Source of the DNA: Adhaeribacter aerolatus
Lineage (GTDB): Bacteria; Bacteroidota; Bacteroidia; Cytophagales; Hymenobacteraceae
Length of the DNA stretch: 64,000 bases
Assembly: GCF_007991635.1 (NCBI RefSeq)
Contig: NZ_BJYS01000003.1
Location: 62,001-126,000 of the forward strand
Reading direction: 5' to 3'
Part shown: positions 18,843-47,232 of the stretch, in pieces
Position numbering within the stretch: the first letter of the stretch is position 1
Layout of the letters: each line of letters begins with the position of its first letter
Notes under the pieces: model-generated
The model's input: the letters and a program-made list of their open reading frames with translations, nothing else
What the model was told of the DNA's origin: nothing
The model's database searches: none
Position numbers and translations under genes: made by a program

Positions 18843-19279
18843 GATATTCGATTATTAGCTTTTTAAATGATTTCTAAGCTTGCAACTTCTTGGTTATTGT
18901 GCTACGAAAACTGCTTATCATTCTTTGGGTTTTATCAATTTGCTCTGCCAATGCCGAAAATTTATCATCTGCAATAAATCCAAAGGAATGCGCCAACAAG
19001 ACCTGCGTTTCCAGTTCGAAAGAGGAGCCTAAAGCAATATTTAAAAAATGCAGGAACTCTTTATTCGATTCTCGCCCTGCACCTTCTGCTATGTTTGAGG
19101 GAACCGATACTGCCGCACGGTTTAACTGAGAGGTTAACCCATATTTTTCTCCCATAGGGAAACTTGCTGTTGCAGTATAAATCATTTTGGTTAACTCCAT
19201 TGCTTCCTGCCAGATTCTCAGTTCCTTAAATTTATGCATGGTTTTAAAATCGAAAAGCGATGATCGAACATCGAATATC
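18843..19279. mobile_element. Putative cassette: four-helix-bundle gene bounded by inverted repeat
   Basis: GATATTCGAT (18843-18852) and its reverse complement ATCGAATATC (19270-19279) bound a unit holding only the S23-type gene. Both ends continue in TTCGAT-type words (AATTTCGATATTCGATTATT on the left; TCGAAAAGCGATGATCGAAC on the right). The right end runs into the stop codon of the thiolase gene. The unit fills the space between two beta-oxidation genes. Mobility is inferred, not shown. Confidence 0.5.
18874..19239 (-). CDS. Four-helix-bundle protein (S23 / 23S rRNA-intervening-sequence family)
   Basis: Small protein of 121 aa. The opening HKFKELRIWQEAMELTKMIY and the centre LTSQLNRAAVSVPSNIAEGA are the family signatures; the whole length matches the S23/Avd-like four-helix bundle, which forms a pentameric barrel in known members. 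Relatives are encoded inside intervening sequences of 23S rRNA genes and, as Avd, in diversity-generating retroelements, where they bind nucleic acid. Here it stands alone between thiolase and acyl-CoA dehydrogenase genes, flanked by short inverted repeats; no reverse transcriptase or rRNA gene is nearby. Its role in this place is unknown. Confidence 0.9.
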   Translation of the reverse strand: MHKFKELRIWQEAMELTKMIYTATASFPMGEKYGLTSQLNRAAVSVPSNIAEGAGRESNKEFLHFLNIALGSSFELETQVLLAHSFGFIADDKFSALAEQIDKTQRMISSFRSTITKKLQA

Positions 19280-20457
19280 TATTTTAACAACTCATAAATT
19301 CCCGCCACACCTTGTCCTCCTCCCACACAGGCCGTTACCAGGCCGTACTTTTGCTTACGTCGGCGGAGTTCGTGCCATTGCTGGATGCTGAGTTTGGCAC
19401 CGGAGCAGCCGAGCGGATGTCCAGTGGCTATTGCGCCGCCACTTACATTTAATTTTTCTTCCGGAACATCCAAGTGCCGAATCACCGCCAGGGTTTGGGC
19501 TGCAAATGCCTCATTTATTTCAAACAGATCGATGTCTTTCATTTGCAAACCTGCTTTGGCCAGCGCTTTGGGAACAGCAGCAATGGGTCCCATGCCCATA
19601 ATGCGGGGGTCTACCCCGCCGGTAGCGTAGGTAACCAGGCGGGCAATCGGCTCCAGGTTCAACTCCTTTACTAAACGTTCGCTCATGACCAGCACAAACG
19701 CAGCGCCATCGGAGGTTTGCGAGGCATTACCAGCGGTTACGGTGCCATTCAACGCAAAAACCGGCTTCAACTTGGCTAATTTATCCAGCGAGGTGTCGGC
19801 CCTGGGTCCTTCGTCGGTATCTACGGTATAGCTGCGGGTTTTCTTCTTACCGTTTTCGTCCACGTAAGTTTCTTCTACAGTTATGGGCACTATTTGCTCC
19901 TGAAACAAACCAGCTTGCATGGCTTTAATGGCTTTCTGATGGGAGTTATAGGCAAATTCGTCCTGATCTTCGCGCGTAACCTGGTAATCTTTGGCCACCG
20001 CTTCGGCGGTTAAACCCATACTCAGGAAATATTCCGGATGTTTTTGCGCCAGATTGTAGTTAGGCACCGTTTTATAGCCCACCGTTGGCACCAGCGACAT
20101 AGATTCGGTACCGCCGGCAATAATGCAATCGGACTGCCCCGCGGCAATTTTGCTACAGGCTATGGCAATGGTTTCGATGCCCGAGCCACAATACCGGTTC
20201 ACAGTCATGCCCGAAACACTAACCGGTAACGACAGGAGGGCAATCATGCGGCCCATTTGCAGACCTTGCTCCGCTTCCGGAACGGCATTACCCACAATCA
20301 GGTCGTCTACCCGCTCCGGGTCTAACTGCGGGACCGAGGCCAGTAAATGCTTGATTACTTCAGCCGCCAAATCGTCGGAGCGCATAAACCGGAAGCCGCC
20401 CCGGTTGGCTTTTGTTACAGCCGACCGGTAGCCGGCAACGATATAAGCATTTTGCAT
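19279..20457 (-). CDS. fadA: Acetyl-CoA acyltransferase (thiolase)
   Basis: Thiolase (392 aa), cleaving 3-ketoacyl-CoA with CoA to acetyl-CoA plus a shortened acyl-CoA. The nucleophilic Cys is in [13 protein letters not shown] near residue 89. The His and second Cys lie in [17 protein letters not shown] and [13 protein letters not shown] at the C-terminus. Length and motif order are standard for degradative FadA-type enzymes. It lies between the FadB-like gene and the acyl-CoA dehydrogenase gene; both neighbouring gaps carry an inserted small gene. Its stop codon overlaps the end of the repeat bounding the four-helix-bundle cassette. Confidence 0.95.
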
Positions 20458-20565
20458 ATTTTTAGATTCTTAGTTTAGATGTTAGGTTTTTGAAGTTAGA
20501 TACTCGATTTCTTACACTTGCACCAATTAGCAGTACATTTAATTCCCGGCTTGTAATCCCCACCC

Positions 20566-20988
20566 GTCATTCTGAAAGAATCTTCTGCTTAGATCGGAAT
20601 CTCAATAGCCCTACTTTTAAAATATTACCTGTACACTTTAATTAACCTTCGATTTTTAAAAACAGCAATTTAGGATTCGCGGATTTTATCAACTTCTCCT
20701 TTTCTTCTCTATTCATAAGCTTTACCTCTCCCTCTCTTTCAATCGCATGATTAGCAGTAGTATGTCTTTCATAATAAACTAGGTTATAACAGTAATATTT
20801 CCCGGCAAATGTCTCTGGCTTTCCTTTGTTCTCCCGATGCTCTTCTAATCGCCTTTCCAGATTATTCGTCATGCCAACGTAATAAGCGGTCTTCTTTGGG
20901 TTTGTGGTAATATATACGAAATAATTCTTGTTCCACATCTACATAGCTTTTGGTATTCAGGCTCATCAGAAGATTCTTTCAGAATGAC
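20566..20988. mobile_element. Putative mobile cassette: GIY-YIG gene with perfect 22-bp terminal inverted repeats
   Basis: The ends 20566-20587 and 20967-20988 are perfect 22-bp inverted repeats (left end begins GTCATTCTGAAAGAATC). Each end is itself partly palindromic (AGAATCTTCT / AGATTCTTTC type). The 423-bp unit contains one gene, the GIY-YIG nuclease on the minus strand. I found no target-site duplication. A degenerate version of the same ends lies at 31725-31827. Classification as mobile is an inference from the repeats, the single nuclease gene and its position inside an operon. Confidence 0.65.
20642..20938 (-). CDS. GIY-YIG nuclease family protein (UPF0213-like)
   Basis: Stand-alone GIY-YIG domain of 98 aa. 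The signature strands are YFVYITTN and YYVGMTNNLERRLEEHR, giving the two Tyr/Gly motifs and the catalytic Arg, and the metal-binding Glu lies in AIEREGEVK near 68; the catalytic set therefore looks complete. There is no DNA-binding C-terminal extension as in homing endonucleases. The gene sits in the fadA-fadB gap within a unit bounded by 22-bp inverted repeats. Small proteins of this type are common in Bacteroidota, often multi-copy, and their biological role is not established. Start is ATG at 20938. Confidence 0.88.
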   Translation of the reverse strand: MWNKNYFVYITTNPKKTAYYVGMTNNLERRLEEHRENKGKPETFAGKYYCYNLVYYERHTTANHAIEREGEVKLMNREEKEKLIKSANPKLLFLKIEG

Positions 20989-21160
20989 AGAGAAAGTAGA
21001 ATGAGTTATGCTGAAATTGTTCTTGAAGAGGAGTTAATGTGTTATAAAACCAACAATACGCTAACTTTATAATAGATTACAATTTTTAACCTAATCATTC
21101 AATGAAGTCGTCTCCTTATTGAATCTTAAATTCTCGACTTTCAACTCTTAACTCTCAAAC

Positions 21161-23563
21161 CTAATTCCTCAAAGGCTTGCCACCCGTTAAAATGCTTTTA
21201 ATGCGTTCCAAGGTTTTGCGTTCACCGGTTAAAGACAAAAACGCTTCCCGTTCCAGGTCGAGTAAATATTGCTCCGATACCGACGCGGGAGCCGACAAAT
21301 CGCCTCCGCACATTACATAGGCCAATTTATTCGCAATTTTCCGGTCGTGCTCCGAGATGTAATTACCGTCGAACATGGCGTAAACTCCTGTAATAAACAT
21401 GCCCAACGCACCCCGGCCTAATACCTTAATATCTCGGCGCGGAATGGGTTGGGTGTAACCGGCTTCCGCTAAATCAATGGCTGCCTGTTTGGCTTCAGAT
21501 ATTAAGCGATTGTTGTTAAGGGTAATCTCGTCGCCGCGACGCAGAAATTTATAATCGAAGGCTTCGTGCGCCGAAGTTGATACTTTTGCCATGGCAATGG
21601 TGGTAAAGGTATTGCGCAAGCTGTTGTATTCGGGATCGCCTTCTTCGAAGCTATCAGCGGTGCGGAGTACCATTTCTTTAGTACCGCCGCCGGCTGGTAT
21701 TAAACCAACGCCAAACTCCACCAAACCCATATAGGTTTCGGCGGCCGCCTGCACCTTATCGGCGTGTAAGCAAAGTTCGCAGCCGCCACCCAGGGTTAAG
21801 CCATGTGGCGCCGCTACCACCGGAACAGCACTGTACCGCATCCGCATCATGGTGTTCTGGAACTGCCGGATCATCAGGTTTATTTCGTCGTAATCCTGGT
21901 CCAGGGCATACATGTACAACAAAGCCAGGTTAGCGCCCGCCGAAAAATTAGGTGCATCGTTGCCGATTACCAACCCTCTGAAATCTTTCTCGGCCATTTC
22001 CACGGCTTTATTCAGGCCTTGCGCTACTTCGCCGCCCATGGTATTCATTTTGGTATGAAACTCCAGGTTCAGAATGCCATCACCCATATCGAACAATGTA
22101 GCCCCGGCATTTTTCCAGACCACACTGCTTTCGCGGTAATTATCCAGAATAATAAAGCTTTCGGTGCCCGGTATTCCTTTGTAGGTCTTAGTAGGAATAT
22201 CGTAATACAACTTCTGGCCCTTTTCTACTTTGTAGAACGAATTATTGCCACTTTCCAGCATTTCATACACCCAGGCGGCCGGTTTCTGGTCTTCGGCCTC
22301 CATAACACGTACAGTATCGGTTACGCCCAAAGTATCCCATAATTCGAACGGCCCCATATCCCAGCCAAATCCCGCCCGCAGGGCATCGTCAATGCGGTAT
22401 AATTCGTCGGCTATTTCGGGAATGCGGTTGGATACGTAGCGGAATAAACCGTGGGCGGTAGCCCGGAAAAACTCACCGGCTTTATCGGTAGCTTTATAAA
22501 AGGCCTGCAGCCGGGGCTTCAGGCCTTCGATAGGCTTAAGCTGTTCCATGCTCGCAAACCGAACTTTCTGCTTGGGTTGGTATTCTAAAGTTTGCAGGTT
22601 CAGGGTTAATATTTCGGTTTCGCCCTGCGCATTTTTGGTTTTCTGGTAAAAGCCCTGTTTAGACTTGTCGCCGAGCCAGCCTTTATCGAGCATTTGCTGC
22701 ACGTAAGGCGGTAATTGAAATAATTCGCGGGCTTCGTCATGGGTGCCGGTTTGGTAAAGACCTTGCGCTACTTTAGCCAGCGTATCCAGACCCACTACAT
22801 CCAGCGTCCGGAAGGTGGCCGATTTGGGCCGGCCTATAACCGGCCCGGTAATGCGGTCTACTTCGTCGATGTTGAGGCCCAAACGCTGCATCTGGTTAAA
22901 AGCATCCATAATGCCAAATATTCCGACGCGGTTGGCAATAAACGCGGGCGTATCTTTGGCAAGCACGGTGGTTTTTCCCAGGTATAAATCGCCGTAATGC
23001 AACAGAAAATTTGTTACTTCTTGGTCGGTGTCCGGGGTCGGGATTATTTCTAATAACTTCAGGTAACGGGGCGGATTAAAAAAGTGCGTACCACAGAAAT
23101 GCTTCCGGAAATCGTCGGAGCGGCCGGCGGCCATCAGGTGAATGGGAATACCCGAGGTGTTAGAGGTAATCAGGGTGCCGGGCTTGCGGAACTGTTCTAC
23201 CTGCCCGAACAAAGATTGTTTTATTTTTAAGTTCTCTACTACCACCTCAATAATCCAGTCGCAGGAGGCAATATCTTTTAAATTATCGGTAAAGTTGCCG
23301 GTGGTAATTAAGCTGGCAGCAGACTTTTGGTACAGTGGCGCCGGATTAGAGCCAATTGCCGCCTGCAACGAGCTGTTTACAATCCGGTTTTTTACGGCCG
23401 GACTATCCAGGGTCAAACCACGGGCTGCTTCTTCGGGCGCTAGTTCCTGGGGAGCCATATCGAGCAGCAACACCGGCACCCCAATATTGGCAAAGTGGCA
23501 GGCAATGCGGGAGCCCATTACGCCAGAACCCAGTACGGCAACTTTTTTAATATTTCTTTTCAT
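21161..23563 (-). CDS. fadB: 3-hydroxyacyl-CoA dehydrogenase / enoyl-CoA hydratase fusion
   Basis: Bifunctional beta-oxidation enzyme (800 aa): hydration of enoyl-CoA and NAD-dependent oxidation of the 3-hydroxyacyl-CoA. The dehydrogenase comes first, with the Rossmann loop VAVLGSGVMGSRIACHFA at residues 8-25 and HFFNPPRYLKLLEIIP near 160. The crotonase-type hydratase is C-terminal, with GNDAPNFSAGANLAL and GGGCELCLHADKVQAAAETYMGL (contact points marked by Gly and Glu). This order is the reverse of E. coli FadB and matches the FadN-type proteins of Bacillus and Bacteroidota. It follows the MarR gene and precedes the GIY-YIG cassette and fadA. Confidence 0.93.
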   Translation of the reverse strand: MKRNIKKVAVLGSGVMGSRIACHFANIGVPVLLLDMAPQELAPEEAARGLTLDSPAVKNRIVNSSLQAAIGSNPAPLYQKSAASLITTGNFTDNLKDIASCDWIIEVVVENLKIKQSLFGQVEQFRKPGTLITSNTSGIPIHLMAAGRSDDFRKHFCGTHFFNPPRYLKLLEIIPTPDTDQEVTNFLLHYGDLYLGKTTVLAKDTPAFIANRVGIFGIMDAFNQMQRLGLNIDEVDRITGPVIGRPKSATFRTLDVVGLDTLAKVAQGLYQTGTHDEARELFQLPPYVQQMLDKGWLGDKSKQGFYQKTKNAQGETEILTLNLQTLEYQPKQKVRFASMEQLKPIEGLKPRLQAFYKATDKAGEFFRATAHGLFRYVSNRIPEIADELYRIDDALRAGFGWDMGPFELWDTLGVTDTVRVMEAEDQKPAAWVYEMLESGNNSFYKVEKGQKLYYDIPTKTYKGIPGTESFIILDNYRESSVVWKNAGATLFDMGDGILNLEFHTKMNTMGGEVAQGLNKAVEMAEKDFRGLVIGNDAPNFSAGANLALLYMYALDQDYDEINLMIRQFQNTMMRMRYSAVPVVAAPHGLTLGGGCELCLHADKVQAAAETYMGLVEFGVGLIPAGGGTKEMVLRTADSFEEGDPEYNSLRNTFTTIAMAKVSTSAHEAFDYKFLRRGDEITLNNNRLISEAKQAAIDLAEAGYTQPIPRRDIKVLGRGALGMFITGVYAMFDGNYISEHDRKIANKLAYVMCGGDLSAPASVSEQYLLDLEREAFLSLTGERKTLERIKSILTGGKPLRN

Positions 23564-31684: not shown

Positions 31685-31893
31685 GGCTTTAGGAGCTATG
31701 CTTAGGACACAAAGAAAATGTCCTGTCCTGCTGAAAGCATCTATTGTTTAGAAAGTAAAGTAGGCAAACAAAGATATTACTAATTTACCTGTAACGCTTT
31801 TTACCCAATAGTTCCTTGCAGGATGACAGCAATGAAGTGTTATCCGTCTGTAGAACACCTTTGCTTTGCTATGTCCTAATCGTAGGGCTTTAG
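31685..31893. mobile_element. Gene-free nested inverted-repeat element (relic related to GIY-YIG cassette ends)
   Basis: From outside in: an 8-bp direct repeat GGCTTTAG (31685-31692, 31886-31893); an imperfect 14-bp inverted repeat, 12 of 14 matching (31696-31709 CTATGCTTAGGACA; 31872-31885); and an inner 22-bp inverted repeat (31725-31746; 31806-31827) with 17 of 22 matching. The inner right end matches the 22-bp end of the GIY-YIG cassette at 16 of 22 positions. No reading frame inside. Possibly a MITE-like derivative; the direct repeat could be a target duplication or chance. Confidence 0.55.
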
Positions 31894-47019: not shown

Positions 47020-47039
47020 AAAATTAATTTAAAAATAAA

Positions 47040-47073
47040 AAAAACCGAAGTAACTAAAACTTCGGTTTTTTTT
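47040..47073 (+). terminator. Terminator after tonB
   Basis: AAAAACCGAAGT / ACTTCGGTTTTT with a 7-base loop, followed by a run of T. Rho-independent terminator of the exb-tonB genes. Confidence 0.88.
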
Positions 47074-47152
47074 ATTGCCGCCTTATAAATTTCCAGGTCA
47101 TTTTCTGATTTCAGCCAGCAAATTTTGTTTTTGAAATTGTTGTGCAATATCT

Positions 47153-47232
47153 GTCATTCTGGAATTCTAAGGATTCCGGCAGAAACCAGTTCATTAATTG
47201 CTAACAAGTTTTCTTACCAAAACAGGTAAGAA
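47153..47232. repeat. Palindromic repeat fragments
   Basis: GTCATTCTGGAATTCTAAGG at 47153 shares its first nine bases with the ends of the GIY-YIG cassette and contains GGAAT..ATTCC arms. Further on, TTCTTACC (47211-47218) and GGTAAGAA (47225-47232) form a perfect hairpin. No opposite end was found, so this may be a decayed half element in the tonB-downstream gap. Confidence 0.4.

Follow-up and report, generated by a model that had tools for sequence, protein, structure and literature searches.

The window, that is, the whole 64-kb stretch of DNA analysed here, contains a 423-bp unit in which a small GIY-YIG nuclease gene lies between inverted repeats, and the question raised by this locus is what the nuclease has to do with the repeats that frame it. 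Exact 22-bp inverted ends enclosing one complete GIY-YIG gene in the fadA-fadB gap had been reported in the preliminary description, and this arrangement was confirmed. The features referred to below are as follows.

20566..20587, + strand: left end, a CGTC/TGTC-type repeat arm GTCATTCTGAAAGAATCTTCTG (word comparison, mismatch and shuffle search)
20967..20988, - strand: right end, the exact reverse complement of the left end (word comparison, mismatch and shuffle search)
20642..20938, - strand: gene for a 98-aa Slx1-like (UPF0213-like) GIY-YIG nuclease (Pfam PF01541, nearest structure 1zg2)
20566..20988, no strand: the 423-bp cassette in the fadA-fadB gap, a gap that is also filled in congeners
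19279..20457, - strand: flanking gene from the ORF list, fadA-like (thiolase) as named in the preliminary description
21161..23563, - strand: fadB-like flanking gene of 800 aa from the ORF list, the synteny anchor
31725..31827, no strand: degenerate head-to-head pair without a gene, of the cassette's repeat class, with arms at 31725-31746 (+) and 31806-31827 (-)
47153..47186, + strand: lone degenerate arm GTCATTCTGGAATTCTAAGGATTCCGGC... (mismatch search)

With up to 3 mismatches, the 22-bp end word occurred in the window only at the two cassette sites and in 0 of 100 dinucleotide shuffles, and the inverted repeat reached 27 nt at 93% when mismatches were allowed. The left end is preceded by C and the right end by T, giving a terminal CGTC/TGTC tag outside a stem that begins with a paired AT (ATTCT/AGAAT). 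Each arm folds into a 5-bp stem with a 3-nt loop, a structure no more stable than that of shuffled sequences (63 of 200 folded equally well), and runs on as CTTCTG, i.e. without a CCA tail. Gene-free derivatives had been proposed at 31.7 kb and at 47.15 kb: the former (31725-31827) proved to be a real degenerate pair whose arms have 5 and 6 mismatches, and the latter (47153) is a single arm for which no partner was found within the following 150 bases. Rfam gave no match in window positions 20400-21200 at E values up to 1, and PADLOC gave only weak matches. Elsewhere in the window, a 121-aa ORF (18874-19239, - strand) that presumably resembles four-helix-bundle/S23 proteins adjoins fadA, and the perfect inverted repeat at 47034-47076 (18 bp, 7 nt between the arms, T-run) is probably a terminator.

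The 98-aa protein matched the Pfam GIY-YIG profile with E=5e-13 (residues 5-79, profile positions 1-75 of 78), and Tyr9, Tyr20, Arg30 and Glu69 were invariant in an alignment of 58 sequences. The best fold match of its AlphaFold2 model (pLDDT 93.5) was the UPF0213 protein 1zg2 (E 1e-4), which was the sole match below 0.001 and also the closest solved structure by sequence. Slx1 came next in the ranking (E 5e-3 and weaker), and the homing enzyme I-TevI ranked 44. The protein is a bare domain with the catalytic Tyr, Arg and Glu and no extra domain, as in the Slx1-like/UPF0213 proteins; no NUMOD or DNA-binding extension was found, and 98 aa leave no room for one. The TIGR01453 homing-endonuclease profile matched at 24 bits, below its cut-off of 56 bits. 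Between the own genome (G000) and its congener G006, dN/dS of the gene in the fadB-fadA gap was 0.07 (the only unsaturated pair among ten), and the gene at this position is under strong purifying selection.

When the own genome, a draft of 6.68 Mb, was searched for the 22-bp end word with up to 3 mismatches, 16 sites were found (control, 0), and the degenerate pattern GTCATTCNGNANGAANCTWNT with one mismatch gave 113 sites (reversed control, 0). Among the 100 sites listed, 27 pairs of head-to-head neighbours lay at exactly 34 bp and constituted gene-free 55-bp palindromes; all three of the units that were folded gave near-perfect hairpins of -22 to -24 kcal/mol, compared with shuffle means of about -3 to -4. 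The ends are thus not unique, and the earlier view of them as a multi-copy family with gene-free copies was borne out. No target-site duplication was detected by a scripted check of 30 loci (L022-L051) at any of 18 gene-free 55-bp units, about 11 of which were preceded by a CYCA-type arm as judged by eye. In the same loci a pyrimidine-rich arm, often CCCACCT or CTCACCTTT, stands before GTCATTC and is sometimes mirrored on the opposite side, so the real unit may exceed 55 bp.

Three small GIY-YIG genes above the Pfam cut-off and two large frames were identified in G000. Like the window cassette, the C20 gene, the frame of which is apparently broken, is bounded by inverted ends. At the C4 gene the left end is good and the right end degenerate, and a gene-free unit lies alongside. 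Six repeats of about 228 bp were also observed in this genome (C4:140874, C8:41339, C17:139026, C18:78742, C50:52474 and C54:23487; L013, L015-L017, L020 and L021). They hold a head-to-head GTCATTC pair and extend past it, and their identity to L013 or L021 was about 89% for L017 and about 97-100% for the others. A broken Y1 transposase gene (L257) adjoins the C50 copy, and these longer repeats may be moved by something else.

Searching the eight genomes of the genus set with the window protein (E 0.001) led to 17 places, among which were 13 small GIY-YIG genes, including the broken genes L067 (with stops) and L064. The inverted match between the two flanks was above all 20 shuffles at 13 of 13 small GIY-YIG genes, the match at the C4 gene (L061) going through the neighbouring gene-free unit. 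Such a match was present at 0 of 6 other loci: the two separate halves of a broken gene close to the end of a contig, a pair of decayed fragments, and two loci with GIY-YIG in a large frame. Paralogues within G005 carry three different end types (GTCATCCTGGAAGGA, GTCATCCCGAGCCTGTCGAGGGATCT and GTCATTCAGGAGGAA). At E 0.001 the window protein matched nothing in G004 or G007, yet these genomes contained 41 and 49 end-like sites, respectively.

The preliminary description had regarded the cassette as a possible mobile element and had suggested comparing orthologous fadA-fadB gaps. Full-length fadB was present in seven of the eight genus genomes, and in five of these seven a GIY-YIG gene was located directly after fadB, in the fadB-fadA gap. 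This occupancy covers much of what the preliminary description itself had named as speaking against its claim, and recent mobility of the window cassette was rejected; as to vacant sites, the gap in G007 retains one relic end similar to the right end of G002, and that in G004 is short and contains neither gene nor ends. When the five gap proteins were placed in a tree together with eight other GIY-YIG proteins, they formed one side of a branch with support of 89/91, which falls below the program's star and so stops short of proof, and the grouping of G005 with G000 and G006, as in fadB, was not rejected (AU p 0.21). The left and right ends differed at 0-2 of 22 positions within a species and at 4-8 of 22 positions between the G000/G003 type, G002 and G005 (G006 was omitted because its right end is interrupted). 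Since the ends are matched within species and diverged between species, the two ends change together, which argues against a simple recent transposition of the window copy and for constraint or conversion acting on the pair, much as for RAYT genes. Vertical inheritance would most simply account for the history of the window cassette.

To the genus loci were added 80 named loci (the best 80 of 561 matches) and 29 loci from a phylum sample. An inverted match scoring at least 14 between a locus's own flanks was found at 58 of these 109 named and sample loci, compared with 27 of 545 mispaired flanks and 0 of 109 shuffled ones. A set of 136 loci was then drawn from the 109, 11 genus and 17 plasmid-collection loci, with the duplicate L058 dropped beforehand, the duplicate L057 dropped for this count and the fragments L062 and L065-L068 and the relic L281 also left out. 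Inward-facing GTCAT words occurred on both sides within 300 bp at 103 of the 136 small GIY-YIG loci (named 66/80, sample 19/29, genus 9/10, plasmid-collection 9/17) and were lacking as a flanking pair at the other 33; a control word gave 4 of 136, and shuffled flanks gave a mean of 8.9 and a maximum of 19 in 200 rounds. The set consists mostly of Bacteroidota and also includes Rhizobiaceae, Azospirillum, Neisseria, Aeromonas and a cyanobacterium. When closing stems within 350 bp were required, both sides qualified at 50 of 137 loci and at least one side at 92 of 137. Outward-facing ends on both sides were likewise frequent (58/137), so some of the pairing reflects local REP clusters.

Framing of this kind was rare around ordinary ORFs. 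Of 654 ORFs from five syntenic regions in the genus, GIY-YIG genes included, 12 were framed; three of the 12 had a matching stem code, and two of these three were GIY-YIG genes. In the REP-rich genome G009, a strict REP test covering 1.2 of 3.9 Mb found 1 of 1063 ORFs to be framed, an ORF of 1972 aa that was judged to be framed by chance. Large-frame GIY-YIG genes were framed in 0 of 7 cases with the whole frame inside the locus, while 14 others extend past the edge of the locus, so that no more than one side is visible.

The arms also matched each other in sequence. The three nucleotides following GTCAT were equal in 57 of 103 nearest left/right pairs (permuted mean 16.0, maximum 28), and 134 of 230 arms closed their own 5-bp stem, compared with a mean of 29.5 and a maximum of 46 for shuffled stem codes. 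As the arms close their own stem across 13 codes, the variation is compensatory. The closing AT was followed by CT in 103 of the 134 arms and by CC in 17. Nearest protein neighbours had a stem code in common in 19 of 45 cases (permuted mean 11.4; 19 was reached in 44 of 2000 permutations), which is only modestly above chance.

Protein searches of the plasmid collection yielded 8 and 48 records, from which 18 stretches spread over clades were taken, 16 of them proteobacterial. A CGTC-type palindrome lay within 300 bp at 10 of the 16 proteobacterial loci and at none of L272, L275, L276, L277, L279 and L280; the Salinivibrio locus L279, whose protein is a more distant relative (26% identical), had no such palindromes in its 3.2 kb. 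Among the 15 proteobacterial loci in the stem-test set, seven had inward palindromes with closing stems on both sides. In Rhizobiaceae, a distance of exactly 22 bp separates the palindrome from the start of the gene or match that follows it at five loci, of which one is a relic fragment. Stems of 8-9 bp with loops of 4-5 nt were found in the Rhizobiaceae, Azospirillum, Aeromonas and Neisseria arms, and in Neisseria gonorrhoeae (L283, NZ_CP119140) a GIY-YIG frame is accompanied by 16 CGTC-type palindromes in a 3.3-kb stretch, palindromes of a type that PMC3733652 identifies with dRS3.

In Azospirillum lipoferum 4B, plasmid AZO_p3 (L273) carries, between sufB and sufC, a GIY-YIG gene that is flanked on either side by a REP pair. 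The four relatives compared, the nearest of which is 95% identical in the aligned flanks, have sufB and sufC adjacent, with neither the GIY-YIG gene nor REPs. Presence and absence of the gene is clear in Azospirillum, and from these other species we infer that the suf cassette probably arose by insertion rather than being lost elsewhere. Base-exact empty-site junctions were not obtained in the genus, Azospirillum, Shinella or Sinorhizobium comparisons because the intergenic gaps are too diverged. A length difference in Sinorhizobium medicae turned out to be an unrelated deletion upstream of a GIY-YIG relic. No REP dimer was found in a 50-kb pSymB stretch. The record labelled plasmid pSymB at L215 (CP090106.1) looks like a chromosome, since its length is 3.7 Mb and gltA and lpxB are among its genes.

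At the genome level, the same 296 Bacteroidota genomes were searched for the gene and for palindromes, using a palindrome pattern that does not pick up the short-loop palindromes found in the window's own genus. The 185 genomes with the gene had a median of 5 palindromes (75 genomes with at least 10) and the 111 without it a median of 0 (11 with at least 10), a difference with a Mann-Whitney p of 6e-13. The association was weaker when stratified by family, 104 of 5000 permutations reaching the observed value (p about 0.02). As for the 11 exceptions, Pfam revealed a small GIY-YIG gene in G024, without such palindromes nearby, and no convincing small GIY-YIG gene was found in the other ten with Pfam or a 58-row profile.

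In G009, a genome of the same class in one 3.9-Mb contig, the CGTC-type palindromes number 223 and are very uniform, and there is no Y1 transposase match. A search for a diverged GIY-YIG partner (Pfam and the 58-row profile, E up to 10) matched an 88-aa GIY-like ORF and two longer frames, of 460 and 609 aa, none of which was seen framed by REPs: no GTCAT pair was present beside the 88-aa and 460-aa genes, and the 609-aa frame was covered on one side only. G009 is the strongest evidence that REPs can sometimes do without a GIY-YIG gene or that they persist after its loss; this genome may either have lost its partner or use another enzyme.

Di Nocera, De Gregorio and Rocco (2013, PMC3733652) defined CGTC-tagged REPs in five phyla, mostly as head-to-head dimers and including Neisseria dRS3 and Rickettsia RPE-4/6 repeats. 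Their survey states that these REPs 'apparently lack a dedicated transposase', reports no transposase gene flanked by CGTC REPs, mentions REPs in 'excinuclease ABC complex proteins' and treats RAYTs as the presumed movers of GTAG REPs. The term GIY-YIG is absent from its text, and a term search of the RepRanger 2025 text (PMC12306157) gave zero occurrences of GIY-YIG, nuclease and transposase. According to Dunin-Horkawicz 2006 (PMC1564403), the bare prokaryotic GIY-YIG domain groups with Slx1 and has a predicted role in repair, and a restriction-like one too, and GIY-YIG domains are common in homing enzymes. Among the titles listed in a literature search that covered subscription papers and preprints thinly, none linking GIY-YIG genes to CGTC REPs was found.

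The association between GIY-YIG genes and GTC-tagged REPs is well supported, and we hold it with much more confidence than any explanation of it. Since the ends are multi-copy with gene-free copies and nuclease genes in other genomes are systematically framed by related ends, the comparison with REP-associated transposases made in the preliminary description was apt. We give a probability of roughly 0.55 to the reading in which CGTC-type REPs have the Slx1-like GIY-YIG nuclease as their enzyme partner, in a counterpart of the RAYT/REPIN system built on an unrelated nuclease, and we infer that the nuclease would mobilise the repeats. The cassette would then be the gene-bearing member of a REP/REPIN-like family with many short, gene-free, head-to-head copies that have related ends. 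A head-to-head palindrome may become single-stranded, on the lagging strand or as a cruciform, whereupon the nuclease would recognise the GTC-tagged hairpin and cut at its base, and this cut would start copying or re-insertion of short units. The gene itself would stay put and act in trans on a whole population of repeats, the role ascribed to RAYTs with respect to GTAG REPs. That Slx1-like GIY-YIG nucleases in general are the missing dedicated enzymes of CGTC REPs, moving short hairpin units in trans through cuts at GTC-tagged hairpins and having evolved independently of RAYT/REPIN, stands in our view at even odds.

The main rival predicts the same anatomy. In this version the gene for a GIY-YIG homing endonuclease would have invaded a head-to-head REP dimer at its loop, the gene-free dimers would be its empty targets, and the REPs would spread by other means. 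The cassette indeed looks like a REP dimer opened by a gene, intact gene-free dimers exist in G000, GIY-YIG domains are frequent in homing enzymes (PMC1564403), and homing-endonuclease profiles match weakly. However, the protein is a bare domain without NUMOD or a DNA-binding extension, its fold and sequence point to UPF0213/Slx1 with I-TevI far down the ranking, and homing leaves unexplained both the spread of REPs and the matched ends across species; we regard it as unlikely. A slightly smaller chance is given to a domesticated host nuclease, a processor of cruciforms or hairpins that guards the chromosome or regulates itself, with the REPs as control elements or terminators that other enzymes mobilise. 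The strong purifying selection (the single dN/dS estimate of 0.07, from one unsaturated pair of ten), the long residence at the fadA-fadB locus, the fixed 22-bp distance from REP to gene at five loci, the predicted UPF0213/Slx1-like fold and the REP-rich genomes without the gene are all consistent with such a role, but it does not readily account for the occurrence in a single genome of several paralogues whose ends are matched yet differ from gene to gene, or for the lineage-specific suf-operon cassette of Azospirillum lipoferum with its own REP pairs.

It is improbable that RAYT (Y1/HUH) transposases move these repeats and that the GIY-YIG genes are bystanders. RAYTs are the presumed movers of GTAG REPs (PMC3733652), Y1 genes occurred in 13 of 17 genomes searched, and a broken one lies beside one 228-bp repeat in G000, but the REP-rich genomes G009, G250, G284 and G204 have no Y1 match and the 2013 survey (PMC3733652) records no transposase gene flanked by CGTC REPs. 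Moreover, the intact Y1 gene L245 (G000 C26:51305-51643), the one Y1 locus examined for ends, is adjoined by CCCTGAAAGGGCG-type repeats and has no GTCAT within 400 bp. A RAYT is thus disfavoured as the mover in G000, since its intact Y1 gene has other repeats, and this genome possibly hosts two REP systems. Coincidence, with REPs gathering in intergenic gaps and small dispensable genes collecting them, would fit the clustering of REPs and the outward pairs common near GIY-YIG genes (58/137), but ordinary ORFs were rarely framed (12/654, and 1/1063 in the stricter test of G009) and the matched stem codes were far above permutation, so we find it the hardest of all to credit.

The conserved, REP-framed nuclease is a concrete candidate for the mover of CGTC REPs, a place left open in the 2013 survey (PMC3733652). 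The association also suggests a function for a large GIY-YIG family otherwise predicted to act in repair. If the enzyme-partner reading is true, two unrelated nuclease folds would have become partners of tagged hairpin repeats independently, and a GIY-YIG nuclease would by itself be the basis of a transposition chemistry.

In MITEs and their parent IS elements, one unit carries the gene, and shorter units that lack it have related inverted ends. Units with and without a gene have ends in common here too, but the cassette encodes neither a DDE nor a HUH transposase, and none of 18 units examined showed a target-site duplication. With the Slx1-like/UPF0213 proteins (PDB 1zg2, 1ywl), which are the nearest sequences of solved structure, the nuclease has the bare catalytic domain and the fold in common; it differs in its flanking repeats, none being mentioned for that family in the available portion of PMC1564403. 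With the CGTC REPs, as described in PMC3733652, the repeats have in common the CGTC/TGTC tag, a stem starting with AT, a mostly head-to-head dimeric arrangement and dispersal in multiple copies, and several palindromes of the proteobacterial loci fit the 8-9 bp stem and 4-5 nt loop. No associated transposase is reported for the published family, and the window arms, with a 5-bp stem and a 3-nt loop instead of 8-9 bp and 4-5 nt and without the unpaired CCA tail, are a relative rather than a strict member because of the short stem and the missing tail. The window repeats fall in or beside the CGTC-tagged REPs and are not new in themselves. Compared with RAYT/REPIN (TnpA-REP; PMC6006769), the enzyme here is of the GIY-YIG type, unrelated to the HUH-tyrosine (Y1) enzymes, and the tag is GTC rather than GTAG; the likeness is that of a long-lived nuclease gene framed by inverted tagged hairpins, with many gene-free paired copies.
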